Virus record (IMG/VR): IMGVR_UViG_3300020472_000054
Location: 1 to 45,624 of that record
DNA from: a virus
Length of the DNA: 45,624 bases
Reading direction: 5' to 3' (one strand)
Below the pieces are notes generated by a model. That model made no database searches. It saw only the letters and a list, made by a program, of their open reading frames with translations, and was not told the origin of the DNA. Made by a program: the position numbers and the translations under genes. Of the stretch, positions 11,003 through 35,886 are shown in pieces; the stretch's first letter is position 1; each line of letters begins with the position of its first letter.

Positions 11003-12598
11003 TTAAAACTCCAGTACTATCTTGATGTCTTCCTTCTGACTTGCAGAACGAGGAATAGCGGTTCTGTTATCAATGTAAATTATTTCACCTGATTTGGTGT
11101 TATATTCAGCAGAGGAAATACCAGCACTAAAGTTCATTCCTAATTGGTAAGTCTTATTATTTATTGACGTACTTACACCATTAAATCCAGAATTGATCTC
11201 ACATAGAGGTCCAACGACTGATGATCCAGCAATTGTTACTCCATATCCTGCATTTGGATTAGAAGTAAATGGTATAATCTTATATCCAGTTTCACTGGAT
11301 GCAAGTCCTGCTGGTTGGTAGTACTTAAGTACCCCAGTAGTTTTATCCCAAGAAGCAACATAACCAATGGCAGTTGATCCCAAACCAACTGTTTGTGATA
11401 TCTCGGCATCAACTGCATACGTTGTTGCAGTAGTAACACCAGCCATCTTAATAGCTTTCAGTCCACTAACAATAGAAGTATCAAGAAGTTCTTTATCTGA
11501 TCCAAAAACAGTAGGATTTTTTACAATTCCAACCCTGGCAAAGTCATTGCCTTCAATAATGTCTGGGTTAGTCTCCAATGTCTCGAATCTTGCATAGAGA
11601 AGTGCTCGATATGCACCCAATTCTCTATAAATGTCATATCCATGTCCACCTTTTGGTGGAATAATAACATCAAAATTAGCAACAGATGTTGTACCAATAC
11701 CAGTATTGGTGAGGTTCGCAAGTGGACCTCCTGATTCACTTCCAGGCGCGCCAGGGAAGAATTGGATAGATCCATGAGTATATCCAGTACCACCATCGGT
11801 TACAAATACCTCTGAGACCTTTCCGAATGAATCAACAGTAATGGTTGCCTTCCCATCATTACCATCACCAAGGATAGGAATATTTGCAAATGATGTAGAT
11901 ATTGGTTGATAGTTAGTACCACGAGAACTAACAACAACTACTTCAATCTTTCCATCAATTGCATTATTTTTAGTTGCAACTGTTTCTCCAGTATCACCCC
12001 AATTTTCTGGAACTGGAATATACTCAAGAGAATCGAATTTTACAATCTCAGAAGGTTTAATAGTGTAAAGATACTTCCAAACATAACCATCTCCACTTGT
12101 ACCAGCTGCCCTTGGTTCAAGGTCAATAAATGTTGGTTGGTCATATGAAGGACGACCCGTTGCGTTCTCTGGGTCTGATCCATTCTGCAAACACACATAA
12201 ACTTTTAAATCATCATTCACAACATAATAATTTGCCTCATATAGACTACCCTGACTGGTAATCGGAGTTAAATTATAGATGTTGTAATCATGTCTGTACA
12301 TCTCATATGTCGTACCTGCAACCCACTTAACTTTACGAACAAGTCTACGAACATCTTTGTCCGTAATTTTCTTCATCGCAATAATAGATTCCTTAATGGA
12401 ATATTCCTCTTGGAATCCATCCAAAGGAGAAGGGGTGTCAGTCGCCCATGTTGAAGTTCCACCTGCTTTAGGTTCTATGGAATTAGGTAATCCCAAGAAA
12501 GCATAGTACTTATTTACAGTAGATCCAACACCAACCAAACTTTTCGTAAAAGTCTCGGCATTCAGGATCCTGAATTGTTCGGATATAATGGCAGGCAT
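11003..12598 (-). CDS. 8: Baseplate wedge protein gp8, 531 aa
   Basis: T4 gp8 is a dimeric baseplate wedge component that binds gp10, gp7 and gp6. The similarity is visible by eye. DGYVWKYLYTIKPSEI near residue 170 parallels T4 DGYVWEYLFEIPP. The C-terminus SGEIIYIDNRTAIPRSASQK and EDIKIVLEF parallels T4 GEMIYMENRPPIIMAMDQTE and EINILFTF. The N-terminus starts MPAIISEQFRILNAETFTKS. At 531 residues it is longer than T4 gp8 (334); an insertion of roughly 200 residues is Gly-rich (GDGNDGKATITVDSFGKVSE, VTDGGTGYTHGSIQFFPG). The start is the ATG at 12598. A late-promoter-like ACTAAATA precedes the gene by about 20 bases. Confidence 0.9.
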   Translation of the reverse strand: MPAIISEQFRILNAETFTKSLVGVGSTVNKYYAFLGLPNSIEPKAGGTSTWATDTPSPLDGFQEEYSIKESIIAMKKITDKDVRRLVRKVKWVAGTTYEMYRHDYNIYNLTPITSQGSLYEANYYVVNDDLKVYVCLQNGSDPENATGRPSYDQPTFIDLEPRAAGTSGDGYVWKYLYTIKPSEIVKFDSLEYIPVPENWGDTGETVATKNNAIDGKIEVVVVSSRGTNYQPISTSFANIPILGDGNDGKATITVDSFGKVSEVFVTDGGTGYTHGSIQFFPGAPGSESGGPLANLTNTGIGTTSVANFDVIIPPKGGHGYDIYRELGAYRALLYARFETLETNPDIIEGNDFARVGIVKNPTVFGSDKELLDTSIVSGLKAIKMAGVTTATTYAVDAEISQTVGLGSTAIGYVASWDKTTGVLKYYQPAGLASSETGYKIIPFTSNPNAGYGVTIAGSSVVGPLCEINSGFNGVSTSINNKTYQLGMNFSAGISSAEYNTKSGEIIYIDNRTAIPRSASQKEDIKIVLEF

Positions 12599-12617: not shown

Positions 12618-12625
12618 TATTTAGT
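12618..12625 (-). promoter_or_regulatory. Late-promoter-like ACTAAATA upstream of gp8
   Basis: ACTAAATA on the minus strand, followed by AAGAAAAAAC and ATTAGATA before the gp8 ATG. The same leader (TAAATAAAGAAAAA then TAGATA) follows the perfect late promoter at 24593-24600, which supports function despite two mismatches to TATAAATA. Confidence 0.5.
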
Positions 12626-12627
12626 GG

Positions 12628-15600
12628 TTAAGTTAATGGTTTAAGTCTGGACACCACTGCTGCAGTAGATAATCCTGTTAGACCGTTATCTGGATTTACA
12701 AAGAATTCATTCGGAGTTCCGGCACCTCTATTCTGGTATCCGTAGATTTGACCCCATGTATATTTACCGTAGAAGGTATCAATAAGAATTGAAGTAGATC
12801 CAATTCCAACCTGAATATCACTGTTATTGTTAGGTCCTGGCTGGAAGGCACATGTCACAGTAACAAGTCCAGAAACAGTGTCTCCAGGCGTTACTTGTTC
12901 AACTCTAAAGATTCCTCCAAGGTTATCTCCAGCAGATATAATTCCAACTTTATTAGCAGGATAATTTGAATATCCACCAATAGCAGTTGTAATTCCAGTC
13001 AATGCATGACCAACAACACATGGACTGTCATAAACTATGAAGTAATCATCTTTTTGAAGTTGACTATAATTAATTCCAAGTTGATTAAGTGAGGAATATC
13101 CATATCCAAGGTTAGTATTATCATTGAAATCAGACTTCAATGTAAATGTTAATCTTGGTGGAGTAGTAGCTCCAATTCCTGGCAACCATGTATTGATTCC
13201 AACAATTGTTCCATAATCACCCTTAGTTCTGAATGAAAGTACATCTTCCCTCTTAGTCTTGTCAGGTTCAACAATTGCAGGTGGAGAACTACCAACTCTA
13301 TATCCAAATCCACCATCTGTAATTGTAATACTTGTAATTACACCAGCAGTGACATTTGCATTAGCAGTAGCTCTATTAATAATTGGATCCGCATAGAATT
13401 GAGTGGTTCCTGTTCCAACTGCAAGAACTCTTCTTCCCCTACTTTCGCCAAAGGTGGTATCAACCAAATCTCTAATTTGATTTGAATGATTTACTGGGCG
13501 AGCATTCCAGTTAACAAGATCGAATGAATAGTACAATGAACCAACAGTACTTATTCCAATATAAAGTCCATCAATATACTTAAGTTTCTTAAAGTCAAAT
13601 GTTGCAGGATGAATTGCATTATTGTATTGTTGTTGACTCCAAGGCTGCCAGTAATTCTTATCAGAAGAAACTCCAATAGTTCCATTATCACCTACTGTAA
13701 TGAACCTGTTTCCATCATAGATGATATCTTGTAAATTATAGTTGGTATTACTTGTCTTAGGAGACCAAATATTACCATCGTTAGATGCAATAATAGCACC
13801 ACCATTACCAACGGCAAGATACTCACTTTGAGCATAAACAATTGCATTTAGAGTCTGAGGAGTATTGGAATACTTACTAAAGAATGTATCACTCTTAACT
13901 CCAACTGCAGTAAAGATAGATCCAGCAACACCAACAGCAACCCAAGTATCTCTCGATCCATCATAAACTACATCATTAAATGTTCCTGCATATGTACTAT
14001 CGTAGATAACTGTTAGATTCAAAGCAGGAATTTGTCTCTCTTCCTTTAAAGTAATAGGAGTCCAAGAAGACATACTATTTCCAACTCCTAAAGAACGAGC
14101 AATCTTTCCATATTCACCAGCGGCAACAACATACTTATCTTGAGGATCAGCATAAGTCCAACCGATTCCACAAGAAGTAAACGTAACAGTACCACCAAAT
14201 CCAATACTTCCTCTTTCCCAGAATGTACCACTCTTAGTGTTAATATAACGAGCACTACTTCCAACAGCAACTATTGGTTCTTCTTTTGTAAATGCCTTCC
14301 ACTCAACAGTATCAGTAACACCAGATATAGCATCAAATCTCCAATCTTTAATAATATCTTTCCTTTCAATTTGAGCATTGGATATTGAAACAACTGGAGT
14401 GTTTAGATATTGATATCCTGCTCCAGCATAAGAAATTGTTAGAGAAGATATACTTGAGGAAGTAGAAACCATAGAGGTTAAAATTCCTGGCGAAATATCA
14501 TAATCCTCAAAGATTTGTACATTTCTCTCTGCCTGAGTTAGTAAATCAATATCAGAGAAAATAGGATATGCATTATTAACCCAAATAACATTATCACTTT
14601 GACCAATATTCCTAATAATCCTTGTTGTAGGAAGAACCTTAGCAGTTAAACTTGGTCTTGCTTTAGAGATTAGAACACCAGAAACAACTTTATCTCTCTT
14701 TTGTTTCTCCCAAGTTAATGGTCTTTCTGCAGTAGGAGCAGTATCAATACCGATACTATCGTATGCAAATGTCTCTAAAACATCAGAAGCAACAATTCTC
14801 TTACCAGTTCTTTCAAACTGATCATTATCGAAGAGATTAATTTTATTCTCTTTAATTTGAACTTCATCACCAGCTTTAACAGTTAGTGGTGGTTCAATTG
14901 TTTCAACGTCTCTCTTAGATCCTCTGAAGTAGAATATAGAACACTTAGAATTTGCTTTAGGTGCTTCAGAGAATATAACTCTACTACCCTTGAATATGTA
15001 AGATTCGCCTGGAGTTTGTAGAATATCGTTGATGTAGATAAAGATATTATTTGTAATATCCATATCACTGCCTGGAGGTGTCTTAAGACTCAATATCTCT
15101 GTTGTACCACCAACAGTTACAGATAAAGTAAACTTCCTACGTGTTGAATTAAAGAATGATGCAATATTATCAAATAGGATAAATTGACCCATGTAGAAAG
15201 CAGAGAAGTCATCATTCTCAAGTTCTACAACTTTTAACTGGAACTCTGTAAGAACACCGACTCTTACGTCAGTAGATAATCCAGCAACTGTCAATACATC
15301 ATCAACCTTATAAGCAACACCTTCTTCAATAAGGTCAAACTCACCAATATTACCATCTACATTAACTCGTAATCCTGCAACAGCATTTGTTCCAATTCCA
15401 GTTGAGCCAGGAGTATATTCTAAAGGTAAATTAAAATATGGATCAGGTTCATGAATATCAAGGAATATTGGTTTATCAATACGACCACCTCTCTTAAAGT
15501 TGGCAAATTCTGTTGTAAGACCAAGATTTGTTCTAAAGTTAGCATTATCAATTGACTCAAGAACATCTACTCCACCATATCCTATTCCAGTAGAAGAAGT

Positions 15601-18600
15601 AACTCTCTTACCTTCAAAGAGATCTCCACCTCTGTTGTAATGGTGTACACAAGTTGAAATACCAACATTACATGTGAATTCCTTATTAGAAATAATCTTG
15701 TCTACAAATGTACCACCAGATGCATAGTCAGATCCACTTATTGAGTTATTAAATTCTCTTGGAGCAATAATTGCACCCTGAATTGTACCACCACCAATAA
15801 AGTGTGTTACTACAGTAGATACACCAACTTGAGTCTCTATTTGAGTGTTACTGATAACTCTATTAACCTTAGATCCAAAGAAATATGGATCACCTTTCTT
15901 AGGATAAGCATGTTCCTGAGTATGACCATCTTTATCACAAGTAAAGGTTATTGCACCTTGTAGATATTTGAAGTTAGTGCCAGGAGTAAAGCTGTGTCCT
16001 GCACCAACTGTCATAGTCATAATACCAAGGGACTCACTGTAATTTGCGGTTGATATGTTATAACCAACTGCAGTTGTAGTTCCTACATTAACTTGAAGTG
16101 TATTTGCACTTGCGGATGCAACTGTAAGTTTCTTATTATGCGCTGGATCATCAAGACCAGATTCTCCAACATTAACAGTGATCTTATCTGGTACAACAGA
16201 TTTAATAGTAGTAATCTTATTATGATATGGATCAGTTGTACGTGGGTATGAATGTTGAGTTGCATGTCCATCAATAGCACATGTAAATACCAATCCACTT
16301 GTAGCAATTCCAATATTAGCATTATCTCCAACCACGTAGTCGTGGCCAGGAAGTGTCAACTCAAGATCACCATTTGATCCATTATAAAATGCACCAGTAG
16401 GTGTTTTATATGATATAGTAGAAATACCACAACTAACCGTAATTGTTGTTGCAGTTGTTGCTGCAATTCCAACTTCTATATTATGAATAGGATCAGCAGG
16501 ACGAGGATATGTGTGTTGAGTAGCATGAGCGTCTCTTGCACATGTCATTGTGATAGAATTGGTTGCAATTCCAATTGTATCTACTGCTTTCTTAATTCCA
16601 TTTGAAGTTGCAGATACAAATGTATGAGCATAGTCTCCACCAGTAGTAACTGCATCATTAGCAGCATTCTCAAAGAGATGTGTAGTAAGATTAGTTGAAA
16701 CTCCAACATCAATTGTAAATGTCTCTGCAGTAACAGACTTAATTCCAAGGGCCGCATTAAGTGCTGGATCATCTCCAGTTGCACCACCTTGTCCGTTTGC
16801 ACGAGGATAAGAGTGTACAGATATGTAATTATCCTGAGCACACTTAAATATGAATCCTTGTTGTAACAGTCTAACACTTGTGCCTGGTCTCAAATTATGA
16901 GGTCCAACAGTGACCGTCATAATACCAGTTTGAGGTGTATATAAAGCGTTTGTAGGTGTAAAACTTACTTTTGGTGACTTACCTACTTCAATTGCAAATG
17001 TATCTGTAGTTGCATTGGTAATAGGTAACCACTTATTGAAAGTAGGATCAGTTCTACGTGGATATGCGTGGTTAGTAGTATTATTATCCATCGCACACTT
17101 GAAGGTTATACCACCCTCAACAATCTTAACTCTATCACCATTAACAAATCCATGACCAGCAGATGTAACTGTCATGATACCAGCAACTGGGTTGTATATT
17201 GCAGCAGTAGCAGTTGCTTGTTGTTGTGCCAACAATCCATGACCAGCAGGAACAGTCATTTCAAAGACACCTGTTGATGCAGTATAAGTTGCAGTTGTAA
17301 CCCCAAGATTTACTATCGTTGATATCCCAACATTAACTGTCAATGTAGTTGGTGTTGTAGCAGCAATTGCAACGTTTGTTAGACTGTTTATTGGGTCTGT
17401 AGTACGTGGATATGCATGTTCTGTTAGATAATTATCTCTTGCACAAGTAAATGTTATTCCACCAGTTGCAATACCAACAGTGTTAGTACCAGCGATTAAT
17501 CCATGTGCAGAGCCGAACGTTAGTACTAATAAACCTGTAGAGGCGGCATAAGTTGCATAGGTAGGAGTTTTTCTCGTTCCACTCCAAGATCCAGAGGTAA
17601 CACAATCTGTATCTGCACTAATGAATTTATGTGCATAATCTCCACCAGTATATGCATTTAAAGCAGCTGCAGCACTAACAAAAGTATGTGCATAATCTCC
17701 ACCATCAATTATAACACCAGAAGTTGCACTGACGAAAGTATGTGCATATCCTGGCCTTGGATATTGATGTTCTGAACCATGATTGTCCATGGCACATGTA
17801 TAATTCAAGGAACTTGTTCCTATACCAACACTAAGTCCATTAGAAAGTCCGTGTGCAGTATCCGTTGTTAACTCAACAATACCTGTTGCTGGAGCATAAG
17901 ATGCATTAGTGACATTAATTGGAACCTGAGTTGTTACACCAACTTGTATAGTTACTGAATTAGTTGTAGTTGTCTTAATTCCAAGTTCTACATTATGAAC
18001 AGGGTCTGAAGTACGAGGATACGTATGATTCGTAGAATGATCATCCTGAGAACATGTAAATGTTAATCCATTAGTTGTTATACCAACTGTTCCATTTGCC
18101 TTTGATAAACCATTAGATTTAGAAGCAAAGAATTCATGATCATAAGCACCTCCACTTATTATGGAATCTGCACTTGAAGATATGAATATATGTTCGGATT
18201 TATTGGATGCTGTTCCAACATCAAGAGTAATCGTTGTAGAACCAGTTGCAATAACTTTAACGGATGTATTATATGCAGGATCTGGTCCACCAATAGCAGT
18301 TGCTCTTGGATAAAAATGATTTGTAGCGTGATTATCCTGACCACAAGTAAATTTAAATGCCCTTGTCTTAAGTTTAACACCCTGTCCTTTCTTGATAGTA
18401 TGACTTCCAATAGTAACTGTCATTAATCCAGTATTTGGATCATATGATCCAGCTGTAGGACTGTAAGTTACTATAGTAGATACACCAACATTAACATTGA
18501 ATGTGTCTTCTGTTACTCCAAAAATAGGTAACCATTTTGACATGGTTGGATCTGATTGTCTTGGATACTTATGTACAGACTTTTTACCGTCCATACTGCA

Positions 18601-21600
18601 TCTAAATTCAATAGAATTCTTATCAAACTTAACTCTATCACCATTAACAAATCCATGATCGTTTAGAGTACAAGTCATAATACCAACTATTCCATTATAA
18701 TTTGCACTGGAAACAGTATGAAGACTTGCAGCCTGTAAATTATCACTAATTCTTGGTGATGTAAGTACTAATTCACCTGTACTTGGAGTATATGTCGAAG
18801 TTGATATATTACGACTTTCTATAGTCGATATACCAACGTTAAGAGTAATTGTATTAGCAGTAGTTGCGGCAATACCTATACTTGCATTTCCACCATAAGG
18901 ATCAGAAGGTCTTGGATATGCGTGTTCGGTTGCATGTGCGTCTCTGGCACATGTAAAGGATATAGAACCTGTATTAATTCCAACTGTATCAGTAGCTTTC
19001 TTCAGTCCATTAGCAAGACCAACGAAAAATTGATGTGTAGTAGTGTTTGAAGATACTCCAACAAATACGGAGAAGGTGTTAATTCCTACATTGTAAATTG
19101 ATAACCATCGATTAGCATATGGATCGGATGAACGAGGATATGCGTGAGGAGTTGCATAGTTATCTTCAGCACACTTAAATGAGACTGATCCAGTACCAAA
19201 ATTAACGTAATCACCACTAACAAAACCATGACCTGCAATGGTTGGTTCCAATACACCAGTAGAAGGTGTGAAAACAGCATCTGTGATCGTGTGTGAGGTC
19301 TGTGAAGTGTATGAATGACCTGCACCAACGTTAAGTACCAATTCACCTGTTAGAGGATCATATCCACAAGTTGTGATACTTCTATTCTGAATTGTAGATA
19401 CACCAACTCTTACAGTAAAAGTATTTGTTGTTTGAGTTGTTATACCAATATTTGTATTAAAGACTGGATCAGAAGATCTTGGATATGCATGGACAGTTGC
19501 ATAATTGTCCTTAGCACACTTAAATGATACAGATCCTTTTGCAATTTTTACTTTCTGAACTTCTCTTAAAACACCACTTGACGTTGCACTTTCAAAAGTA
19601 TGATCGTACACACCACCACTAATAACAGCGTCTGTTGATACACCAACGAATTCGTGATCATAATCACCACCAGTATAGACTGAATCAACAGTAATACCCT
19701 GATTGGGAATGAAACTGTGTATGTAATCACCAGCCGTAGTTAGACCAACATTACAGGTAAACATAGTACCAGCAACACCAGTTACAACAACAGCAGTATC
19801 GTGGAATGGATCTCCAGGCCTTGGATAAAAATGATTAGTACTATTAGCGTCTTTAAGACAAGTAAATCCTAAAGATAGTTCTTTAAATCTAACACTATCA
19901 CCAACAGTAATACCATGATTAACAGTATTCAGAACACAGGTCAAAACACCCACAGAAGGAGTATAATGAGCAAATACTGGAGTCTGTGTAACAATAGTAG
20001 AGACACCAACATTTACTGCAATTGTTGTTGCACCTACACTAACAATTGAAAGAGCAGTATCATAATATGGATCTGTTGTTCTTGGATATGTCTTAGTTGC
20101 AGTTTTACCGTCCATTGAACACTTAAAGTTCAATGAACTATTAGCAATCTTGATGCTTGTACCTGCCTTTAAATCATGAGTTCCGATGGTCATTGTCATG
20201 ATACCAACGGAAGGTGTATACTTAGCGTCAGTAACAGTAAAATTAACCAGTGGAGATGTTCCTACAAATATTTCAAAGGTATCAGTAGTTTTATTAGATA
20301 TCTGCATCCACTCATTACTAATTGGATCAGTTGATCTTGGATAAGTATGAGTAGAACCATATCCATCCATTGAACACTTAAATCCGATGGAATTGTCTAA
20401 TACTTTAATCTTATCTCCATTAGCAAAACCATGACTTGGAATAGTTAAAGTAACTATACCAACAATAGCGTTATATCTTGAAGTTGTTACTGTATGTGCA
20501 GAGGGACCAGATAGTCCATGATTAGGAACAGTTAGAGTTAAATCACCAGTAGATGCATTATAGTCAGCAGTTGTTGGTGTAGTTGTTCCTCCTCCAACAA
20601 TTTCTACACAATCTGCATTTGCACTAACAAATGTATGGTTATAATTACCACCAATTCTTATTACATCAGTCTGAGAACTTGTATGTGTATGTGCATATCC
20701 ACCACCATTAAACAAAGCACCTGCAGATGCAGTAATAAACTTGTGATCAAAAGCACCACCAGTCAATAATGCACCATCATTTGCATTAATAAACTTATGA
20801 GTATACTCTCCACCCAGAACTACACCACCAGCAAGAGCACTCTTAAATGTATGAGAGAATTGATCTTGTGGAGCAGCATAACCAACATCAGCAGTAATGG
20901 TATTAGAAGTAATACTAAGAATTGGAACTGATGTATCGTATGTGGAAGATTTTCTTCTTGGATAATAATGAGTCTTAGCACCATTGTCTAATTGACAAGT
21001 AAATCCAAGACCTGCAAGAACAATATCCTTACCTACCTTATAACCATGATTTGCAGCAGTAGTTACTGTCATAACACCAGTGGTGTTACTATATTCTGCA
21101 CTACTTACACCAATACGAGGTTCATAATCGCAAGTAAAGGCAATTCCAGAAAGAACTACACAATCATCTTCTGTTAGGTTGTGGTTCTTATTAGTTAAAA
21201 CAGTTGCAATACCAGAAGTATTATCATAGATCACTCTGGATACTGGTACTGCAGGACTACTTGCAAAAGTAACAGCAGTTCCAGTTACTTGAACAAAGTC
21301 ATCAGTCTTTAATCCATGACCTTCAAAATGAATAAAGGATCCAATACCTGCCTGAGCAGTATGAATTCCTGTAGTAGTCATTGCAGCACCGATATTAACG
21401 GTAAATGCTGTTCCTGCAAAACCAGTTACAGAATAGAATCTTTGAACATCTGATGGGAATGTAATATCACCAATACCAGTACTAAATGCAATACCAGCTA
21501 ATCTAACTACACTGGTTGCAGTTAATCCATGAGCACTGCCAGGAGTAATTGTTGCAACACCACTTACAGAATCATATGTTAAAGATGCAATGTTTACTCC

Positions 21601-23535
21601 ACCTGCAGGACCAACATTACATGTGATAGTTGTTGCACCTACACCAGTAATTGCTATATCAGTTTTATTATATACTGGGTCTGTAGTTCTGGGGTATGTG
21701 TGAGATGTGGCGTGATCATCCTTAGAACAGGTAAAACTTAATTTTCCTGCATTTATTTTTAATGTGTTTGAAGTTGTATAACTATGGGATCCAATTGATA
21801 ATACCAACTCTCCTGAATTAGGATTATATGTAGCACCATTTACGTCTTTATTAACACTGCCCTGAGTTATTGTAATTGCAGCAGTTGAATTACCACCATT
21901 GTAAATATGGGTATCATAAACTTGACTACCATGAGCAGTAACAGTTGTTATTCCATCAGATGGAGTCTGATTAATGTATGAAACTGTTTTTGGAATATAA
22001 TATCCTGTTCCACCATTAGTAATGGTTAGGGAGGTTATAATTCCAGCCTCTGCCTTCTCTACTACACCACCAGTAACGTAATTATGTTGGAAAGTAGTAA
22101 TACCAACAAAACAAGCGAATGTATTAGCTGTTGTTTTAAGAACATCGAAACCAACTATGTTTCGACCCTCCATGATACCAGTATCAATACCAGATCTAAC
22201 AAGTCCACCACTAACATAAGTTAGAGGTTGAGTTCCTACTCCTGCAAATACTCTTACTTCATTTGCATTATCGTTATTAACAATTGGATATCCATCTTCC
22301 CTAAACAAGAACGTACTGATACCATCAGTGACTTGAACTTGTGTTACTAAAATACTCTTTGATTGATTAGTTGCAGTACCAAGATAATGTCCAGCAGTTG
22401 CTCTTATACTTGCAATACCAGTAATATAATCATATCCAAAGAAAGCTATATTTCTATTAGCAGATAAAGGAGTAAAGGTAAATCCAGCACCAGTAATCCT
22501 TACCCTGTCATCTACTTCCAAATTATGAGCAGATCCAGTTGTAAATGTACAAATACCAGCAATATGGTTATAATCTGCAGTAGTTATGGCTACAGTTGAA
22601 CCTGCATTAGTACCCAAATTTGCTGTTATTACAGCACCACTTCCTTGACCAGATCTAATATATGTCTCTGGAGAAGATCTGTATCCTGCACCCTTTCCAG
22701 TTAATTGAATATGTTCTACAGCTCCAGTAGAACCTATACCAATAACACCAGCAGCCTTTATTGGAGCATAATATCCAGAACCAGTTTGTAATCCAACTTT
22801 AACTATTCTTCCAGCTCTTGGTACACCACTTAAAAAGTTAAGTTTATTATTTGAACTATTAACAACTTCAAAGTCTGCGCCAGGAGTCTGTACAACATTG
22901 TTAATGAGTACAAATGGGTTATTATTAAGATCTACACCACTATTAACATCATTATAGAGTGCAGTTACTATACCTAAATTTTCAGTTAAAGTAAATTGAG
23001 TTCCTGCAAGACCAGTAAACTCAAGAGCAATATCGTCAAGTACTAAATTCTTATCTTCAGGTTCAAATGGGTCTAATTTTCTCGAAAATAATCTACCAGA
23101 GAAAGTTGATCCAGTTTCTAATCCAACAGGTCCTAATTTTCCAAAAGGAGCATCTGTAAAGTAAATATTATCATCTTTAATATTATAATCACCAGTAAAT
23201 ACAGAGTTTGCAGCACTTACTGTATGACTGGTTGCTATTGAACCGAATGCTCCACGTTCTACAACAACATCAGATGCAGTTGTGGTACTAAAAACAGGGT
23301 AATATCCTATACCTTCTTTGAATATAACAATAGAACCAATTGTTCCTACACCAGTAATAACTGGAAAGAAAACTCCCTCTGTTGTAGGGGTTACTGTTCC
23401 ATCAATTTCTATTTTAGGAGGATCCGTTACAGCGTAACCAGCACCACCTTCCAATACCTCTATTTTTTCGACTCCGTAGTCAGAATTAAAATAAGGTCTT
23501 AGAAGAGCTCCAGATCCAGGCGTAGTCCTTGGCAT
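12628..23535 (-). CDS. Giant repeat-containing virion structural protein, 3,635 aa
   Basis: The largest gene of the window lies between the gp9/gp10-like gene and gp8. From the N-terminus: Gly-rich beta repeats of the type GGAGYAVTDPPKIEI; residues of about 590-2560 with 18 copies of a unit centred on FxCxxDxxxxxHxYPRxxDP and ending in a VGxST strand, mixed with eleven GGxYxHxF segments; residues of about 2650-3080 with generic beta sequence; residues of about 3080-3360 with at least six blades of a BNR/Ycf48-like propeller (WVAVGVAGSIFTA, YLAVGNGGAIIASNDGNIW, FITVGDNGTIGVSSDKNYW); then a Gly-rich end. No enzyme signature was recognised. It is plausibly a long fiber, whisker or baseplate spike that touches the host, an inference from repeats and position. 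The ATG at 23535 follows the preceding stop by about 13 bases. Confidence 0.85.
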   Translation of the reverse strand: MPRTTPGSGALLRPYFNSDYGVEKIEVLEGGAGYAVTDPPKIEIDGTVTPTTEGVFFPVITGVGTIGSIVIFKEGIGYYPVFSTTTASDVVVERGAFGSIATSHTVSAANSVFTGDYNIKDDNIYFTDAPFGKLGPVGLETGSTFSGRLFSRKLDPFEPEDKNLVLDDIALEFTGLAGTQFTLTENLGIVTALYNDVNSGVDLNNNPFVLINNVVQTPGADFEVVNSSNNKLNFLSGVPRAGRIVKVGLQTGSGYYAPIKAAGVIGIGSTGAVEHIQLTGKGAGYRSSPETYIRSGQGSGAVITANLGTNAGSTVAITTADYNHIAGICTFTTGSAHNLEVDDRVRITGAGFTFTPLSANRNIAFFGYDYITGIASIRATAGHYLGTATNQSKSILVTQVQVTDGISTFLFREDGYPIVNNDNANEVRVFAGVGTQPLTYVSGGLVRSGIDTGIMEGRNIVGFDVLKTTANTFACFVGITTFQHNYVTGGVVEKAEAGIITSLTITNGGTGYYIPKTVSYINQTPSDGITTVTAHGSQVYDTHIYNGGNSTAAITITQGSVNKDVNGATYNPNSGELVLSIGSHSYTTSNTLKINAGKLSFTCSKDDHATSHTYPRTTDPVYNKTDIAITGVGATTITCNVGPAGGVNIASLTYDSVSGVATITPGSAHGLTATSVVRLAGIAFSTGIGDITFPSDVQRFYSVTGFAGTAFTVNIGAAMTTTGIHTAQAGIGSFIHFEGHGLKTDDFVQVTGTAVTFASSPAVPVSRVIYDNTSGIATVLTNKNHNLTEDDCVVLSGIAFTCDYEPRIGVSSAEYSNTTGVMTVTTAANHGYKVGKDIVLAGLGFTCQLDNGAKTHYYPRRKSSTYDTSVPILSITSNTITADVGYAAPQDQFSHTFKSALAGGVVLGGEYTHKFINANDGALLTGGAFDHKFITASAGALFNGGGYAHTHTSSQTDVIRIGGNYNHTFVSANADCVEIVGGGTTTPTTADYNASTGDLTLTVPNHGLSGPSAHTVTTSRYNAIVGIVTLTIPSHGFANGDKIKVLDNSIGFKCSMDGYGSTHTYPRSTDPISNEWMQISNKTTDTFEIFVGTSPLVNFTVTDAKYTPSVGIMTMTIGTHDLKAGTSIKIANSSLNFKCSMDGKTATKTYPRTTDPYYDTALSIVSVGATTIAVNVGVSTIVTQTPVFAHYTPSVGVLTCVLNTVNHGITVGDSVRFKELSLGFTCLKDANSTNHFYPRPGDPFHDTAVVVTGVAGTMFTCNVGLTTAGDYIHSFIPNQGITVDSVYTGGDYDHEFVGVSTDAVISGGVYDHTFESATSSGVLREVQKVKIAKGSVSFKCAKDNYATVHAYPRSSDPVFNTNIGITTQTTNTFTVRVGVSTIQNRSITTCGYDPLTGELVLNVGAGHSYTSQTSHTITDAVFTPSTGVLEPTIAGHGFVSGDYVNFGTGSVSFKCAEDNYATPHAYPRSSDPYANRWLSIYNVGINTFSVFVGVSSNTTTHQFFVGLANGLKKATDTVGINTGSISFTCARDAHATEHAYPRPSDPYGGNASIGIAATTANTITLNVGISTIESRNISTSTYTPSTGELVLTSPRISDNLQAASLHTVSSANYNGIVGIMTCTLNDHGFVNGDRVKFDKNSIEFRCSMDGKKSVHKYPRQSDPTMSKWLPIFGVTEDTFNVNVGVSTIVTYSPTAGSYDPNTGLMTVTIGSHTIKKGQGVKLKTRAFKFTCGQDNHATNHFYPRATAIGGPDPAYNTSVKVIATGSTTITLDVGTASNKSEHIFISSSADSIISGGAYDHEFFASKSNGLSKANGTVGITTNGLTFTCSQDDHSTNHTYPRTSDPVHNVELGIKTTTTNSVTIQVGVTTQVPINVTNASYAPATGIVELTTDTAHGLSNGLSVGIGTSSLNYTCAMDNHGSEHQYPRPGYAHTFVSATSGVIIDGGDYAHTFVSAAAALNAYTGGDYAHKFISADTDCVTSGSWSGTRKTPTYATYAASTGLLVLTFGSAHGLIAGTNTVGIATGGITFTCARDNYLTEHAYPRTTDPINSLTNVAIAATTPTTLTVNVGISTIVNLGVTTATYTASTGVFEMTVPAGHGLLAQQQATATAAIYNPVAGIMTVTSAGHGFVNGDRVKIVEGGITFKCAMDNNTTNHAYPRRTDPTFNKWLPITNATTDTFAIEVGKSPKVSFTPTNALYTPQTGIMTVTVGPHNLRPGTSVRLLQQGFIFKCAQDNYISVHSYPRANGQGGATGDDPALNAALGIKSVTAETFTIDVGVSTNLTTHLFENAANDAVTTGGDYAHTFVSATSNGIKKAVDTIGIATNSITMTCARDAHATQHTYPRPADPIHNIEVGIAATTATTITVSCGISTISYKTPTGAFYNGSNGDLELTLPGHDYVVGDNANIGIATSGLVFTCAIDGHATQHSYPRTTDPYHNKITTIKSVVPDKITVNVGESGLDDPAHNKKLTVASASANTLQVNVGTTTAVGYNISTANYSESLGIMTMTVGAGHSFTPGTNFKYLQGAITFTCDKDGHTQEHAYPKKGDPYFFGSKVNRVISNTQIETQVGVSTVVTHFIGGGTIQGAIIAPREFNNSISGSDYASGGTFVDKIISNKEFTCNVGISTCVHHYNRGGDLFEGKRVTSSTGIGYGGVDVLESIDNANFRTNLGLTTEFANFKRGGRIDKPIFLDIHEPDPYFNLPLEYTPGSTGIGTNAVAGLRVNVDGNIGEFDLIEEGVAYKVDDVLTVAGLSTDVRVGVLTEFQLKVVELENDDFSAFYMGQFILFDNIASFFNSTRRKFTLSVTVGGTTEILSLKTPPGSDMDITNNIFIYINDILQTPGESYIFKGSRVIFSEAPKANSKCSIFYFRGSKRDVETIEPPLTVKAGDEVQIKENKINLFDNDQFERTGKRIVASDVLETFAYDSIGIDTAPTAERPLTWEKQKRDKVVSGVLISKARPSLTAKVLPTTRIIRNIGQSDNVIWVNNAYPIFSDIDLLTQAERNVQIFEDYDISPGILTSMVSTSSSISSLTISYAGAGYQYLNTPVVSISNAQIERKDIIKDWRFDAISGVTDTVEWKAFTKEEPIVAVGSSARYINTKSGTFWERGSIGFGGTVTFTSCGIGWTYADPQDKYVVAAGEYGKIARSLGVGNSMSSWTPITLKEERQIPALNLTVIYDSTYAGTFNDVVYDGSRDTWVAVGVAGSIFTAVGVKSDTFFSKYSNTPQTLNAIVYAQSEYLAVGNGGAIIASNDGNIWSPKTSNTNYNLQDIIYDGNRFITVGDNGTIGVSSDKNYWQPWSQQQYNNAIHPATFDFKKLKYIDGLYIGISTVGSLYYSFDLVNWNARPVNHSNQIRDLVDTTFGESRGRRVLAVGTGTTQFYADPIINRATANANVTAGVITSITITDGGFGYRVGSSPPAIVEPDKTKREDVLSFRTKGDYGTIVGINTWLPGIGATTPPRLTFTLKSDFNDNTNLGYGYSSLNQLGINYSQLQKDDYFIVYDSPCVVGHALTGITTAIGGYSNYPANKVGIISAGDNLGGIFRVEQVTPGDTVSGLVTVTCAFQPGPNNNSDIQVGIGSTSILIDTFYGKYTWGQIYGYQNRGAGTPNEFFVNPDNGLTGLSTAAVVSRLKPLT
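15880..21770 (-). repeat. Protein-level repeat array: 18 C-D-H-YPR-DP units plus GGxYxHxF units
   Basis: Within the 3,635-aa protein the unit (I/L)xFxCxxDxxxxxHxYPRxxDP recurs 18 times. Examples are SFTCARDAHATEHAYPRPSD and NFKCSMDGKTATKTYPRTTD. Each is followed 25-30 residues later by a strand ending NVGVST. Spacing between units varies from about 60 to 140 residues. A second unit, GGDYAHTFVSA-like, appears eleven times, often in tandem pairs. Cys, Asp and Tyr-Pro-Arg are the best kept positions and the His is kept in nearly all copies. Copies are diverged, so this is an old expansion with possible recombination rather than a recent tandem duplication. Boundaries are approximate. Confidence 0.85.
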
Positions 23536-23548: not shown

Positions 23549-24571
23549 TCAAAGAATATTAAGAGAACTACTGCAATATACTCTGGTAGATCCAGTACTA
23601 TCTCGGATAATACTAAATGTCAAGATATCTTCATTACTTGTGGATGGAGGCGGATTACCACCAACCCATCTAACTCCACCAGAAATTGAAATACCGTTCA
23701 CTTTAACTGCATCCCCGTAAGTAGATCCTGCACCTGCATTATTTACGAGGGTAACTGTAGTAGCCTTACTATTTAACGCAGTTACGTTAGTGAAGTCCCA
23801 AGTAACAACTGAAGTTGATAATCCGCCAAGATGAACAGATCCTTTTGATGCATCTACTGTAAGGGTTCCACCTATAGCAGTTAATGAAGTATTCCAATCA
23901 CCCCAAACTTTTTCGGTGATATCACCATTAAGATGTGTAGTTCCAGTTAAGGTAGTAATACCAAGTATTTTTACATCACCAGAAACATCTAATCTTGATG
24001 ATGGAGCAGTAGATCCTATACCACAAAATGCTTTATTCGTAATAACGAATGATTCTAATGGTGTTACTAACTCATTAGAAGATATCCGTAATCCATGTGC
24101 ATTACCTTTAGCAATTCCCCATATAGCAGGTCTCTCATTAGAGAATGTTGCAACTTGCAATTGAGATGTAGGAAGTGAAGTTCCTATGCCAACCATACCA
24201 TCAGATTTAATCCTAAACATGGTTGTTGCATAACCAACCTCTATAGGACCATCTGTGATTGCACCTGGCTGTTGTATTGTAATTTTACCAATATCAGCAT
24301 AACTTGAAGTTACAACACCAGTCGTGTTGATCATTGGGTTTCCAGTCAGTCCATAAGCGAATTCAGACGTAACTGACGTTGATGCAGTTCCACTATTAGT
24401 TGAATATCCTGCAGTACTGGCATATGATACAAAACTGATTAAATTATCTCCATCCCCAAAGATGGTGTAAACATCCTCAAAATTAGAGTTAATCTTAAGG
24501 GTTCCAGCAAGTAGGGTATCCCCCGTGCCGTCATTAGGAGCAGATCCAGTGTTTATACCTTGTCGTGCCAT
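23549..24571 (-). CDS. gp9/gp10-like baseplate-fiber connector domain on a fiber protein, 340 aa
   Basis: Residues 5-45 (INTGSAPNDGTGDTLLAGTL, KINSNFEDVYTIFGDGDN) match the N-terminal segment shared by T4 gp9 (STGDILFDGGNKINSDFNAI) and gp10 (DDGTGDYLRKGGIKINENFD), a trimeric coiled-coil attachment module. The middle carries fiber repeats with the 'GIGT.xPxxxLxV' signature (VGIGTSLPTSQLQV, CGIGSTAPSSRLDVSGDVKI). The C-terminus (VRWVGGNPPPSTSNEDILTF) is a motif common at the end of marine phage fiber proteins. It probably plugs into the baseplate and presents a fiber-like tail, in the position of gp9/gp10. A perfect late promoter precedes the gene. I did not assign a T4 gene number because the match is to a domain shared by two genes. 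Confidence 0.8.
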   Translation of the reverse strand: MARQGINTGSAPNDGTGDTLLAGTLKINSNFEDVYTIFGDGDNLISFVSYASTAGYSTNSGTASTSVTSEFAYGLTGNPMINTTGVVTSSYADIGKITIQQPGAITDGPIEVGYATTMFRIKSDGMVGIGTSLPTSQLQVATFSNERPAIWGIAKGNAHGLRISSNELVTPLESFVITNKAFCGIGSTAPSSRLDVSGDVKILGITTLTGTTHLNGDITEKVWGDWNTSLTAIGGTLTVDASKGSVHLGGLSTSVVTWDFTNVTALNSKATTVTLVNNAGAGSTYGDAVKVNGISISGGVRWVGGNPPPSTSNEDILTFSIIRDSTGSTRVYCSSSLNIL

Positions 24572-24601: not shown

Positions 24602-27600
24602 TTAATATGGAGGGTTGTCATCGTGAGTCGCTAATGTTGATCCCATACGAACAACTGAAGAGTTCATTCTCTTCGTGTCATAATAGAAATTATTATCGAC
24701 TGTATTTTCGGCATTTGCATACCTTGTCTTCACAAATGTAGTGTCACCAATGGATTTCACTTTAATCAATTCCTCATCAACCTTGATGATATCTCCTTGA
24801 GTTAAAGATCCAATTCCAGATGATATAATTATTCCTTGATCAATCTTAGAAATTTGTGAACCGATTCCAACTGATAACTTCTTATTCTTGATTGGAGTCT
24901 GAATAATGTTATCGATCATAATAAGAGCATTCAGATTAGGTTCTGCATACTTAAGAATATGCGTTCCTGTTCCCAATCCAACAAAATCAAGAGGTAATCC
25001 AGTCGATAGACCAGATAATCTAAATGTAGTGTCATCAATCTTCTGTATGAAGACTCTTTCTGGAATAGCTGTTCCACCAAGTTCTATTGGTGTTACAGAA
25101 ATGTTATCTGCTGGAGTAGCACCACCAATATAAGTTCCTGCAATAGAAATTGTATTTGTAGTAGCATATCCAGATCCACCAGCAACAACATCAACTTGAG
25201 AGATGTCTAAATTAGTATCTCTCCAAACATTAAATCTTGCACCAGTTCCAGCACCATCATTTGTAGATGGAACATTAGAATATGTTGTTAATATACCAAC
25301 TCTTGTACCCGTAACAGCGGTTACTGGGAAGGTTATATTGTTAGCAGCAGTTGCACCACCAAGATATGTTCCAGCAATACTTACATTATCACCAACAAAG
25401 TATCCACCACCACCTTTAATAAGAGTAACAGCAGTAGAAATTGGTTGTCCTGTGGACTGGTTGTAATCAATCTTGACTTGGAACCTTGCCTCAGTACCTC
25501 TTGTTGAAATGCCAGGCAAACCACCATCTGGACTACCAAATCCAAATATCTTATAGACTACAATTGGGTTAGCAGTTGTACTTACACCTGTTACTGGGCC
25601 AGGTATCTGGTTATTATAACCATTCTCATACATTGCACTACCACCATAACCAGAGTGAGCAACAGACATAACAATGTCTTTTGTTCCACTTAAATGAGAA
25701 GTTGTAGCAATACCAACACCATCACCACCCTGTTTATCATAAATTAACTCTTGTCCAGATTGGAAGTTATGACCAATGATTTTAATGCTATTATTTGTTA
25801 CACTAACAACACTTGAATCAGAAGAATCAAATGACTGTTTGAATATAGTTTTAGTATCAGATGTTAATTGGAATTTAGTATTTCCAACTAAAGTACCAGT
25901 TCTATCATGTTTTCCATCAAAACCACCAGAGATATCATCTATTTTAAGAACCTTATTGGTCTTATTAAGAATATAACTCTTAATTGGTCTTCCTTCTGGG
26001 AAGAATATCCTTTGTACAGATCCGTCTGGATGCATATCATCCTCAGTAACCATACAGAAATTCTGTTTGTTACCCATGAATATATCGTTATCGATATTGA
26101 TAAGTAAGTCAACTTTAGTGTCAACTGTCTTAACTTTCATGTTATTGGATTTAGCAATACCAACAGTAACTAAATCAAGTGCATCAACATCTTTTTTGGA
26201 ATCACTTTCAATCTTAAGATCAGAGAATTCAAGGAATCCTGATGGATGAAGAATAGATCTTACAGACTCTTTCCACTTATCATATGGAAGGTCACTCTTA
26301 ATAGAATATGAGAACTTCTGATAATAGAAGTTATCTGATATTCTTTGACTGAAATCGTTAAGAATACCAAAATTCATATCATTCTTAGAGACCTTATTTC
26401 TGGTAACTCCAAGTTTAGTTGAAACTGTAAATCTGTTTACATCTCTAACATTTCCTTCTAATTCAGAAACCTCTCCAGTCAATGTATCTCCAGATCTCAA
26501 TATACCAGTAGTATCTCTTAATCTAAGTTGATTTAATCGAGGATCCCAACCATTTTCAGCAACATATCCTTCAAACTTAGTAGATGTGACTCTTTCACCA
26601 GAAAGATACTTACCATCATCGATAAGTTTCATATTAAACTTAGCCATATCGTTGTAATTAACGATATAACCCAAAGTAAAGTCATCATCATAAGAACCAA
26701 GAGTTACAGTAGAAATTCCTGTAACACTTGCCATACTATAAGTGACTGTGTAATTGGTACTATTAATACCTGTTACTGGGAAGAAATTATAATCAAAAAC
26801 TTCGGAGTTGAAGTTAAATTCACCAGCAGATTGTGAAGCTGGTTTTATTCTACATCCTTCAACAAATACCATGTCACCAATTTTAAATGGGAAGGTAATA
26901 GATGTTGAAGCAAACCCAGAAGTAATTGGTTTGTTGAACTGCGGATCAAGAAGTAATTCTATAGTAACATCAGTACCAGAATGTGATATAGCATCTATAT
27001 CATATCCATTAGAGTTCTTTGTAGTAATGATGCTTAGTGGTTCATTAAATTCAAAAGCATTTTGAACAACTTCTACACTATCAACTGCACCACCAACAAC
27101 ATGAGAAGCAATCTTAACATTCTTATTACCACGAACAGTAACAGTAGGTGGTTGTGTATAATTTCTACCACCATCAATTACATCAATGGTATCAATTCTT
27201 GCAATTCCATTAATATCTGCAATAGCAGGAACACTCAAGAAAGGTAAGAGAGTTGGGTCAGTTGGATAATCAAACCCATCCTTAACTCTATCTAAATTAT
27301 CAACTTCACCAATATCTGTAGAATATACTTTAACTACACCATCTTTACCTTCACTACTTGCAAATCCAACTACTCTTGGTAAGATACGATATCCTTTGCC
27401 AGGGAAATTAATCTTAGTTTTAGCTATTGGGCCGTTAGCAGTAAGAGAATCTGTTCTATAAGTTATGGTACTTACACCAGCTCTTGAAACAAGCATCTGT
27501 GGTGAAGTAGGTCTATCCTTAAGATTAAAGGTAAACTCTTTATCTCCTGCTCTAAGAACCGTATGTTGTGTTCTAATAACTATCTCATTAAATGTGATGT

Positions 27601-30600
27601 TATTTCTACCAATAACTTCCTTATCAGAAATATTATATAACTTTCTTGTATCTGATGGAACAACTGGTGTTAAACTATAATAACTCTTTCTTGGATAATC
27701 AGTATTTGATCTAATAGTAACTGTGGCCGCAGCAGTGCCAGGAGTACCACTTCTTGTAATGTTAAATCCAAGTTCAGAATCACCATCCACATCCAATCTT
27801 GAAACAAAATCAATATCTTCAAAGAAATCCAATCTCATATCTTGAAGAGTCGTATCTGATACATCAAATGATATAAGATTTCCTGTAGTAAAGTTTAATG
27901 CAGGATTAATTCTTGCAAGATAATATGTACCAGTAGCAACCGATGTAATTGTTACAATCTTAGCATCTTTAACATCTGATTTATGCTTACAAAGTTTAAT
28001 GTTAACTGGATCTTCTCTCAATATGAAATATGTCTCATTATCTACCAATCCAGCAATCGTATTTCCATTAGCGTAATAAACAACTTTATCACCGTTTTGG
28101 AAGGTATCATTAGTAATTGCAATGGCAGTTAAATCTGCAGTAACCTCTGCTTGTGTAAAGGAAACCTTTTCAGTAGTAATCTTTGCTAATACTGGATCAT
28201 AACGTAAAACAACTTCTTCCGTTTCTGTAGGTATAACATCAAGTGTAATAACATCATTACTCTGAAGATTGTGATTAGTCTTAGTAACAACTCTACCAAA
28301 GAACCTTTCAACTGTACTATTAACTCTTGGGAACGTAGTTCTTAATGAATGTGCGATTCCAACTACAGATGATAGATTATAGAACCATACTGCATCAGAA
28401 GCAGACGGGAATCCAACAGTAGATAATCCAAGACGATCTTTCCCTAAATTTACAGCATATAATTCTCTTTCATCACCAAACCATTCAGTACCGATACCTG
28501 AAGTAGAACCAGCCCCTGTAGGACTCCAAACAAGAGATGATCCACCAACACCTACATTATAGATCAATTTTTGACCAGTAAAGTAAGTATGACCTGGCAA
28601 GTAGAGAGATCTCTCTTCTACAAACCTATTTTCGATGGTTTCTGTCAATGCAGTAGCAAGACCAGTAGAAACTATCCTATAATGAGTTCCTGTTGATCCA
28701 ACACCGACTGTTTCAGTAGGATTGAAGAATTTAGTGTAATTTTGGAAAGAAAGGTAACTAACATTTTGATTACCTAAATCAAATGAGAATTTAGTCGGTT
28801 TTAGAACAATATTATCAGTTCCTGCTGCATGAGTTACTGCAATACCAACATAATACTCTCTATTAACTCTTAATCTCGAAAACTTGGTATCTACCTCAAT
28901 AACCGTCATAGTTTCGGTTCCAATACCAATAACATCACTTACATTGAATCCTCTTGTATCAGTTACGTCAATATAAGTCGTTATACCAGTAGATGAGACA
29001 TTAGCAAGATTAGTAGATAAACCAACTGCTCTTGTTAAAACTTCTACTTTTTGTTGTCCATTAAATGGAGTAAATTGTGATGTAGAGATACCAGAAAGGT
29101 AAACAATCTCTCCATTAGCAATTTCATGTGGAATTGTCGATATAGCAACAATTTTGTTGTTCTCCAACATCAAATCGGTACTAACAAAAGTAGTTACACC
29201 AATTTGTAGAGTACTGACCTCTTCTCCAAGAACTTCCGAAACAACAATATTAGTACCAGTACCATCAGTACCACTATTATCTAATTTTAGACTATCATTA
29301 ACTTTATATCCAGTTCCTCTTGCAAAAATGGTTACAGAAGAAATACCAGAGGTTTTAGTCTTAGTAACATCAAATGATTGTTTGTAATTATCATCAACTT
29401 TGTCAATTAGGTCATAATCGGAGTTTCCGTATGACAAATAGTATGGACCAATGTTTCTTGTGAACTGTTTAGCAATAAGATCAGAATCTTGGTTAAAGAA
29501 GGTAATGAAATTCTCTTCAATTGGAAGATCCTTGAACCTTGTTCCCATAATGTATGGATACTTAGGTTCAGCAACTCCACTTGAGTCAACATCGATACTA
29601 TAGAAGTATGCATATGTTCCATCAGGGAATTGAGGAGTAATACAGTATCTTCCACCATATTCATCCAAATCACCAGAGTTATCAAACATGTAATCGTTAA
29701 TAAACGATCCCAAAGAGTACCCAGGCGGTCTCAGACCGACCTTAGACGTATTATCGAGAATATATCCACTCTTAAGTCTTACAACACTACCACCAGTCGG
29801 TGATTGATAACCATAAGGGCCATATATGGGGTTACCATCATAAGCATATCCCAAAATAGGAGAATGGACAGCATTTGCTGATAATTCTAAGTTGCCTGGA
29901 TCAAGATTATCTCCAAGTTGATATCTCAACTTTTGTGGAGGATACATCGATATAGTTTGAAGTTGAAACTCTGGGTTATTACTTGGTTTGATTAAAATAG
30001 AGTCTTCTCTACTAATAATATCTTCATTCTTGTCAACTTGGTTAATTTTCCACTCACGAACGTCAGCAATGAACTTTGCAGAAATACCTCTGTTCTGTAA
30101 TGTTAAAGTTGTATCACTTGACCCATATCCTACACCACCATCAAGTATTTTTACACCAGTAATTTTATTATTAGCAATAATCGGTTGAATATCAGCAAAA
30201 CTACCTTTTGGACTATAAACTACAATATCCGAGTCTTCTCTATATCCACTACCAGCTGCAAGTATCTGAACATCAACAATAGAACCATCAATAATGATTG
30301 GTTTCAATAATGATTGGAAAACAACTGTAGAAATACCAACATCTGGTCTTCTATGGAAATCAAGAATATTTGTACATCCATATCCAATACCACCGTCTTC
30401 CAAATAGACACTTTCTATACTTCCAAGTACTTTTGGACTTAAAACAGGTTCAATAATGGTTGTAGCACCAATACCAGAAAGAGCTTCAATAGAAACAACA
30501 ATAGGTGGATACTGTATGGTATGTTTACCAGTTCCTACTCCACGTAGAGTTTGAGTTCTTTTCTTATCGTAATTTTCTGGAGTTTTTTGAGTTCCAATTC

Positions 30601-35470: not shown

Positions 35471-35886
35471 TATACTCTCGTTGATTGAAGAATGAACTCT
35501 ACCTGTTGTGCCGGAAATGATAAACCAGTAATATCGTATGCAATTTGAACGATTAACTCATTTGTATCCGCAGGATATTTCACGATGACTTGTACGTTAG
35601 TGACACGTAATTCAAAGTTTTCAAGTAATAACAGAATATCGTCCTCTATGACTTCTGCCATATCTGGACTTTGCATTTCAAATAACGAATCCTCTACTTG
35701 AGTACCGATCAAATCATTATAAAACCTTTCTCCCAATCTGGTTCTAACCAAATTAGTTACAGATCTACGAACGGCATCTTCATCAGAAAAGGTTCCGATG
35801 TCGTTAGTTACTGGATGTTTTACAAATGACAAGCTTATATCTCGAAATTTTCGAGACCTATTTCTTGATCGGTCTATCAGAGCCAT
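35470..35886 (-). CDS. 25: Baseplate wedge subunit gp25, 138 aa
   Basis: gp25 is the small wedge protein that joins sheath and baseplate and is conserved in contractile injection systems (GPW/gp25 family). The sequence shows RKFRDISLSFVKHPVTNDIG, then DEDAVRRSVTNLVRTRLGER and FYNDLIGTQVEDSLFEMQSP. The 'v...tr.GER.f.p.lG..v...lFe' core matches, and a C-terminal strand IVQIAYDITGL follows. Length is typical (T4: 132). It starts six bases after the 56-aa gene and overlaps gp6 by TAATG. Confidence 0.93.
   Translation of the reverse strand: MALIDRSRNRSRKFRDISLSFVKHPVTNDIGTFSDEDAVRRSVTNLVRTRLGERFYNDLIGTQVEDSLFEMQSPDMAEVIEDDILLLLENFELRVTNVQVIVKYPADTNELIVQIAYDITGLSFPAQQVEFILQSTRV

Follow-up and report, generated by a model that had tools for sequence, protein, structure and literature searches.

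Genes at the locus

The window analyzed here, 45,624 nucleotides of viral DNA, carries a cluster of baseplate genes on its minus strand (Table 1). Within the cluster lies P0001, a protein of 3,635 aa whose uninterrupted reading frame (12628..23535) holds 18 units of a C-D-H-YPR repeat, in agreement with the initial annotation of this DNA. The order gp25-gp6-gp7-connector-P0001-gp8 is syntenic with that of S-SSM7 (Kyanoviridae, Lipsvirus), in which gp25, gp6, a “gp7”, a 340-aa protein, a second “gp7” and gp8 follow one another.

Table 1. Features of the window (residues are those of P0001)
Feature	Residues (aa)	Window position	Strand	Evidence
P0001, 3,635-aa ORF; best read as outer arm of giant gp7, T4-like cyanophage		12628..23535	minus
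Array of FCCH-like units (predicted), 18 with the C-D-H/K-YPR hairpin	563-2585	15781..21849	minus	profile envelopes, alignment, models of 4/18 units
Related copy lacking the motif	647-732	21340..21597	minus	profile
Two consecutive units, high-confidence model	1604-1782	18190..18726	minus	mean pLDDT 91.4
Four 18-residue GGxYxH repeats, in tandem	908-979	20599..20814	minus
Two GGxYxH repeats, low model confidence	1289-1324	19564..19671	minus
One GGxYxH repeat	1795-1812	18100..18153	minus
Two GGxYxH repeats	1945-1981	17593..17703	minus
One GGxYxH repeat	2299-2316	16588..16641	minus
C-terminal stretch of P0001; also aligns P-SSM4 gp7 and the unit-free S-SZBM1_208	2776-2945	14701..15210	minus
One-unit cassette of ~104 aa with the Cys603 unit; absent from L010, S-SSM7 and L012	~540-643	21607..21918	minus	312 nt net versus L010
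P0002, gp7 core, 2,997 aa; T4 gp7 similarity, YHYH domain inside		24602..33595	minus
340-aa protein with T4 gp9/gp10-type N-terminus (wedge-to-fiber connector)		23549..24571	minus	Pfam
gp8 baseplate wedge subunit		11003..12598	minus	Pfam
gp6 baseplate wedge subunit		33596..35470	minus	Pfam
gp25 baseplate wedge subunit		35470..35886	minus	Pfam

In S-SSM7 (locus L009), two proteins that stand one gene apart (3829-12852 and 13918-22923) both bear the name “gp7 baseplate wedge initiator”. Only the first has a window orthologue that matches T4 gp7 by sequence: P0002 matches the solved T4 protein (5hx2) at E 0.001. The whole of P0001 matched no PDB sequence at E up to 0.1, and a search at E up to 1 with the 1,035 aa at its C-terminus gave no T4 gp7 match either, so that the name “gp7” of its S-SSM7 orthologue is without direct support. 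P0001 does match phrog_2885, a “baseplate wedge subunit”.

The link to gp7 comes from relatives in which core and array form one polypeptide. Residues 7-2608 of the 5,195-aa gp7 of P-SSM2 align to P0002 and residues ~3215-4927 to P0001, the latter in several overlapping alignments; ORF101 of S-TIM4 (6,603 aa) matches P0002 in one region and the array in a later one; and the same arrangement is found in the examined parts of P-RSM6 and P-SSM4. Across these relatives and S-SSM7, the array is either fused to the gp7 core or adjoins it. Because core and array are fused elsewhere, P0001 is best read, on sequence comparison, as the split-off outer or distal arm of a giant gp7 that is here encoded by two genes.

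Two other proteins of the window have features of their own. Residues 1240-1335 of P0002 match the YHYH domain (PF14240, E 7.9e-20), unexpectedly for a baseplate wedge protein, and adjoining gp8 is a 2,503-aa protein (window 3485-10996) that is covered almost end to end by DUF4815 (PF16075) and by phrog_358, a family of unknown function.

A giant gp7 of a related kind is a virion protein. MS of purified virions detected S-SZBM1_208, a “baseplate wedge initiator” of 6,619 aa, with a table row that gives 71 (taken as peptides) and 13.5% coverage (PMC9146016). Its C-terminal 5,250 aa, the part that we examined, align to P0002 and to P0001 residues 2776-2925 and contain no unit. The units therefore look like accessory modules on giant gp7. 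They also occur beyond gp7, in proteins that depositors name tail fiber or short tail fiber, such as S-SSM7_113 (“phage tail fiber-like protein”, 2 units) and Sf-CH1b_92 (“tail fiber protein”, 3 units). That P0001 is a tail protein of virion type built on a repeating structural module, as first suggested, is consistent with its place in the baseplate cluster, the gp7 fusions and the barrel predicted for each modeled unit.

Architecture of the repeat

The pattern C..D.{5}[HK].YP[RK] occurs 18 times in P0001, with its Cys between residues 603 and 2533, and not a single occurrence arose when the protein was shuffled 2,000 times. Sixteen units keep the strict form C..D.{5}H.YPR; the other two are the unit at Cys 1139, with Lys for His, and the last unit, with YPK. 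Profile envelopes run from 563 to 2585, confirming an array of about 2,000 residues, and also detect related copies that lack the motif (e.g., aa 647-732 and 764-807). The consensus first proposed, FxCxxDxxxxxHxYPRxxDP followed by an NVGxST strand, holds in part. In the alignment, inspected by eye, xxDP directly follows in 14 of the 18 units and Phe stands two residues before the Cys in 16. A V-G strand comes after 16 units (unit 2332 has C-G, and unit 1914 is shortened, with a GG repeat taking over), and four units have N-V-G-x-S-T letter for letter. The count of eleven GGxYxHxF repeats fits the ten found by regular expression together with a degenerate one that lacks GG and belongs to the copies of DNA repeat D8.

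Successive Cys residues are spaced by 244, 207 and then mostly 85-87, 97-100 or 114-117 residues, with a single spacing of 74. In the sequence, the spacings of 114-117 hold an additional hairpin or GG repeats, and in the spacing of 74 a GG-type “H.F” element replaces the first hairpin of the unit. At the DNA level, the copies are mostly 60-75% alike (60% being the lowest value listed), which indicates that the repeat, for the most part, arose long ago and did not expand recently. One 40-nt pair between two units (window 17116-17155 and 18619-18658) is 93% identical and is possibly a local gene-conversion tract.

Predicted fold of the unit

Each unit of ~85 aa is predicted to form a small beta-barrel. 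An AlphaFold2 model of residues 1604-1782, which hold two units in succession, was based on 120 aligned segments and has a mean pLDDT of 91.4 and a pTM of 0.65. It shows six or seven strands in each unit, plus a single short helical turn; in its first unit the motif spans a strand at 39-42, a turn at 45-47 and a strand at 51-54. A second model with two further units (aa 1282-1510, 60 rows) reached a pLDDT of 79.7 and a pTM of 0.50, with low confidence in its GGxYxHxF stretch. The two models cover 4 of the 18 units, and at these pTM values the geometry between units is uncertain. BFVD models of S-SSM7 gp7 match the two-unit model at TMq 0.84.

A beta-solenoid fiber, possibly trimeric, was the architecture first proposed. 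Trimeric fibers are common among long, repetitive tail proteins of phages, and the GGxYxHxF repeats, of low confidence in the monomer model, could be trimeric. In both modeled segments, however, the four units are predicted as separate barrels within a monomer, a result that speaks against the solenoid for the C-D-H-YPR units, and the array is joined to gp7 in relatives. T4 gp7 is present in one copy per wedge, which argues for a single chain rather than a trimer. We consider a solenoid or trimeric fiber very improbable.

Comparison with known structures points tentatively to the barrel type of the E1 FCCH domain and of phage endosialidases; a sub-threshold Pfam hit had prompted the FCCH idea before any model was made. 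In a Foldseek search of the PDB, the two-unit model had no match at E below 1e-3; the top rows were the sialic acid esterase SIAE (E 0.095 and 0.23, TMq 0.21) and, third, the phi92 endosialidase (E 0.32). When the Foldseek top 1000 were realigned with VIA, the Uba1/Uba6 FCCH domains and the endosialidase barrel (endoNF 425-490) led the list for the first model, with Z up to 6.1, and for the second model Uba1 FCCH scored Z 6.9 over 75 residues and FCWL1 Z 6.8; Z values of 6-7 are middling on the tool’s own scale. The phage FCWL1 head-to-tail protein (9jlf_E) is high in both lists, at fourth and second place. Since FCWL1, MreC, riboflavin synthase and V-ATPase folds score level with the FCCH rows or no more than about 2 Z below them, it is their rank, combined with hits at the sequence level, that favors the FCCH reading. 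The sequence hits are sub-threshold: E1_FCCH matches a motif-less copy (aa 774-798) at E 0.0036 and the whole of P0001 at 17.8 bits, below the gathering cut-off of 29.5, and in searches with single units End_beta_barrel (E 0.032) and E1_FCCH (E 0.058) each matched 1 of 18. PF12195, the endosialidase barrel family, gave no hit with the whole of P0001 at E up to 1.

No Pfam model exceeds its cut-off for P0001, and NCBIfam gave no match at E 0.1. The earlier statement that no named domain covers the repeat accordingly stands for formal assignments, but has to be qualified by the FCCH/endosialidase-type fold, by the sub-threshold hits and by PHROG families that match the protein.

Several other hits were set aside. 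PepQ_N gave the best E of any unit search (0.00076, in 1 of 18 units) and 13.8 for the whole protein against a cut-off of 27, and we take it as chance, as we do the CCL2-like and HMA hits, each in 1 of 18 units. The sole PDB hit of the unit profile, an iota-carbonic anhydrase (E 0.048), consists of three stretches of 2.6-6.2 bits and is distrusted.

Conserved residues and the hairpin

We counted residues in a set of 998 unique units, some of them incomplete, expressing each as a percentage of the units with a residue at that position: Cys is found in 98%, Asp in 89%, Tyr in 94%, Pro in 98%, Arg in 90% and Asp57 in 92%. At position 50, occupied in 853 unique units, His accounts for 73% and Lys for 17%. 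As the loci behind these units were mostly chosen by the motif, the count was redone on 234 units from loci chosen otherwise, with similar values (Cys 96%, Asp 95%, Tyr 95%, Pro 99%, Arg 90%; at position 50, His in 151/196, or 77%, and Lys in 32/196, or 16%).

Covariation was computed over 694 units (effective number 435). The 30 strongest pairs include 38-51, 38-49, 35-51 and 40-49 of the hairpin; the strongest of all, 34-60, lies elsewhere. Pairs 38-51 and 40-49 define an antiparallel register (i+j = 89) that fits the predicted strands, and this register would place F39, C41, H/K50 and Y52 on one face of the hairpin, D44 near them, and R54 and D57 at its end, an arrangement that would keep the hairpin rigid. 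The clustering of Cys, Asp and His that had been supposed is thereby supported, in that covariation and predicted strands together indicate that the conserved residues are probably neighbors in the fold.

The initial annotation offered “a structural or metal-binding module”. The first half of this phrase is upheld, in the sense of a repeating structural module, and the second is not. A metal ligated by the Cys, Asp and His of each unit, stabilizing the fold or the arm, would fit the conservation of these positions, strong for Cys and Asp and less so for His, and position 50 does couple to position 43 and more weakly to 44. Lys, however, is not a usual metal ligand, and it replaces His at the frequencies given above, in both sets of units, while Cys and mostly Asp are kept; this exchange argues for packing or salt bridges and makes a metal site improbable. 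The same substitution weighs on a Cys-His-Asp catalytic triad acting on cell-surface polymers or proteins. Three conserved residues near one another in sequence would suit such an enzyme, but it would have to tolerate Lys for His in 17% of units and be repeated in 18 tandem copies, and the best-ranked matched domains are not catalytic, with riboflavin synthase rows ranking lower; although the E1 FCCH domain and the endosialidase barrel are parts of enzymes, neither is a catalytic domain. We regard an enzymatic role as extremely improbable. A covalent Cys-His/Lys bridge within the units is speculation.

Gain, loss and exchange of units

In three pairs of relatives, one member has a single unit (104-108 aa) more than the other. 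Compared with L010, whose DNA is 92-93% identical, the window is longer by 312 nt, a single cassette that contains unit 603; L016 is 318 nt longer than L012 (84-86% identical); and among uncultured phage genes, L018 is 324 nt shorter than L013. In the last pair, identity is 99.3% over 5,274 nt on one side of the difference and 83.5% on the other, so that a recombination (mosaic) junction coincides with the one-unit difference. These cases bear out the earlier suggestion that whole units are gained and lost by recombination.

Unit 603 resembles units of other loci (66% over 88 residues in L048, 73% over 62 in L129 and 58% in S-RIM8 gp7) more than any other unit of the window (45% at most). The cassette was therefore probably acquired from outside, and an origin by local duplication is unlikely, given matches of up to 66% over ~90 residues in other loci.

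Units outside the one-unit differences are old, as judged by their correspondence between relatives. All 17 units of L010 match the collinear window unit best, as do 8 of the first 10 units of S-SSM7, with the remaining 2 within 2 points. The last third of the array is the most divergent, and S-SSM7 has two units there. Between the window and L010, dN/dS is 0.14 for aa 1-539, 0.175 for 644-1000, 0.19 for 1001-2585 and 0.12 for 2586-3635, and the motif residues are unchanged at each of six positions in 17 of 17 shared units. The array is thus under purifying selection on average. No diversifying selection was seen in this single pair, for which regional averages would still allow a few selected sites.

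Distribution among phages

A tblastn search with a two-unit segment (E 1e-5) matched 294 of 50,697 phage records, whose names begin with Synechococcus (241), Cyanophage (25), Prochlorococcus (20) or Marine (8). Relaxing the threshold to E 10 raised the number to 383 records, with first words limited to the same four.

The comparison of unit numbers between related phages that had been proposed gave a range of 0 to 19. Counted with a loose pattern in the proteins examined, there is 1 unit in S-RIM8 gp7, 2 and 3 in two proteins of metaG-MbCM1, 3 in Sf-CH1b_92, 5 in P-TIM40, 6 in S-TIM4, 8 in P-SSM2 (7 strict), at least 11 in P-SSM4, 12 in S-SSM7, at least 16 in P-RSM6, 17 in L010, at least 17 in L018, 18 in the window, L012, L013 and L015, and 19 in L016. 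None was found in 16 ORFs of S-PM2 (S-PM2d), one of them examined in part, or in the gp7 part (5,250 of 6,619 aa) and two more ORFs of S-SZBM1, so not all such phages need units. The large mutated S-PM2d proteins of PMC9910659 (S-PM2d081 covered in part) contain no units, nor does ORF108 of S-TIM4, which was mutated in an evolution experiment (PMC6224464). In the main text of the latter paper, the unit-bearing ORF101 was not found under that name.

Viral and genome contigs were also searched with a DNA pattern of the motif; the viral set (at least 120 stretches) is a sample. In 84,980 species genomes, the long form of the pattern gave 26 stretches, whose titles are mostly those of MAGs, many of them from marine surveys. 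Origin was looked at for one of the 26, a 188-kb contig of the isolate assembly of Nonlabens xiamenensis 1Q3 (L154, NZ_RMVE01000006.1), of which the 8 kb examined are 98.7% identical to P-TIM40, a Prochlorococcus cyanophage of 188.6 kb; the contig is probably phage contamination of the assembly. A distant blastn search of plasmids with a 4.8-kb piece of the array gave no match.

A proposed function for the array

We propose that P0001 is the separately encoded outer arm of a giant gp7, made of FCCH-like barrel beads that contact host glycans and whose units recombine, a reading that we hold to be modestly probable on balance. Each unit would be a barrel bearing the C-D-H/K-YPR-DP segment as a strand-turn-strand hairpin, and barrels in series, some linked by GGxYxHxF repeats, would give a long and probably flexible arm at the baseplate rim. 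This arm may make the first, weak and multivalent contact with host surface glycans, in the role that the long tail fibers have in T4, and recombination that adds, drops or swaps whole units would change its length and surface.

We suggest glycans for two reasons. The endosialidase barrel has a sialic-acid site, and its loops are described as hotspots of host discrimination (PMC12632334). Moreover, S-SZBM1, P-RSM6 and P-TIM40 are listed among phages without long tail fibers (PMC9146016), and of these, P-RSM6 and P-TIM40 carry units, while the examined part of S-SZBM1 has none. In the units themselves, no carbohydrate-binding residue could be named.

The main rival to glycan contact is a pure spacer, in which inert beads set the length and elasticity of the arm, the hairpin stabilizes each bead, and contact is made elsewhere, e.g., by the C-terminal part or the connector. 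The conserved residues do look structural, selection is purifying, the range of unit numbers is what a spacer would allow, and relatives that have few units, or lack them, still retain the C-terminal stretch 2776-2945. A featureless spacer would nevertheless have no need for units that keep separate identities, as the collinear matches in S-SSM7 indicate; in addition, a phage barrel of similar fold binds sugar, and units are present in proteins named tail fiber. We therefore regard the spacer as a serious possibility, if a rather unlikely one.

A bolder version of the glycan-binding arm is a modular, exchangeable adhesion device, whose beads are traded singly between picocyanobacterial phages without long fibers, so that reach and avidity evolve by unit number, and whose stiffness may be set by a covalent or redox-sensitive Cys-His/Lys bridge; we offer it doubtfully, as an unlikely refinement. 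As a separate observation, ORF85 of S-CREM2 is a giant, MS-detected “long tail fiber” with reported homology to coliphage K1F, an endosialidase phage (PMC10665884).

Because its barrels can be counted and separated, a giant gp7 arm would be a testable candidate for host recognition, and the natural one-unit differences among related phages offer material for such tests. To our knowledge, host recognition of Prochlorococcus and Synechococcus by T4-like cyanophages is poorly known. Tail fiber proteins were described as “missing” in a review of 2010 (PMC2984593). Our literature search found no publication on the repeat or its fold by title or abstract opening, a weak result that leaves most subscription journals outside its coverage.

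Comparison with known systems

P0001 shares its gene place and fusion partner with the giant gp7 proteins of P-SSM2, P-SSM4, S-TIM4 and S-SSM7; its S-SSM7 orthologue, S-SSM7_103, is 49-51% identical. T4 gp7 itself has 1,032 aa, and P0001 alone lacks a match to it.

Like the E1 FCCH domain (PF16190), the unit is predicted to be a small beta-barrel (VIA Z 6.1 with 2.1 A over 62 residues in the first model, and 6.9 with 2.7 A over 75 in the second). Unlike it, the unit is not a domain of a cellular enzyme, P0001 scores below the Pfam cut-off, and ~20 residues per unit, about the size of the hairpin, stay unaligned (62 of 83 aligned). The endosialidase barrel (PF12195; endoNF 425-490, phi92 257-323) is a similar barrel by VIA (Z 6.0 for the first model, with an rmsd of 1.8-2.0 A over 59-60 residues) and also belongs to a phage tail protein, but it lies within a tailspike enzyme, whereas the P0001 units are serial and carry a conserved hairpin of which no counterpart could be demonstrated in the endosialidase.

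At the level of sequence, the protein is already covered by PHROGs: families 5342, 2885, 1276, 701 and 18802 match P0001 in 11 to 19 stretches each. Their names go no further than tail fiber, baseplate wedge subunit, virion structural protein or unknown function, with no described domain, and the barrel predicted here would supply a fold for their units.
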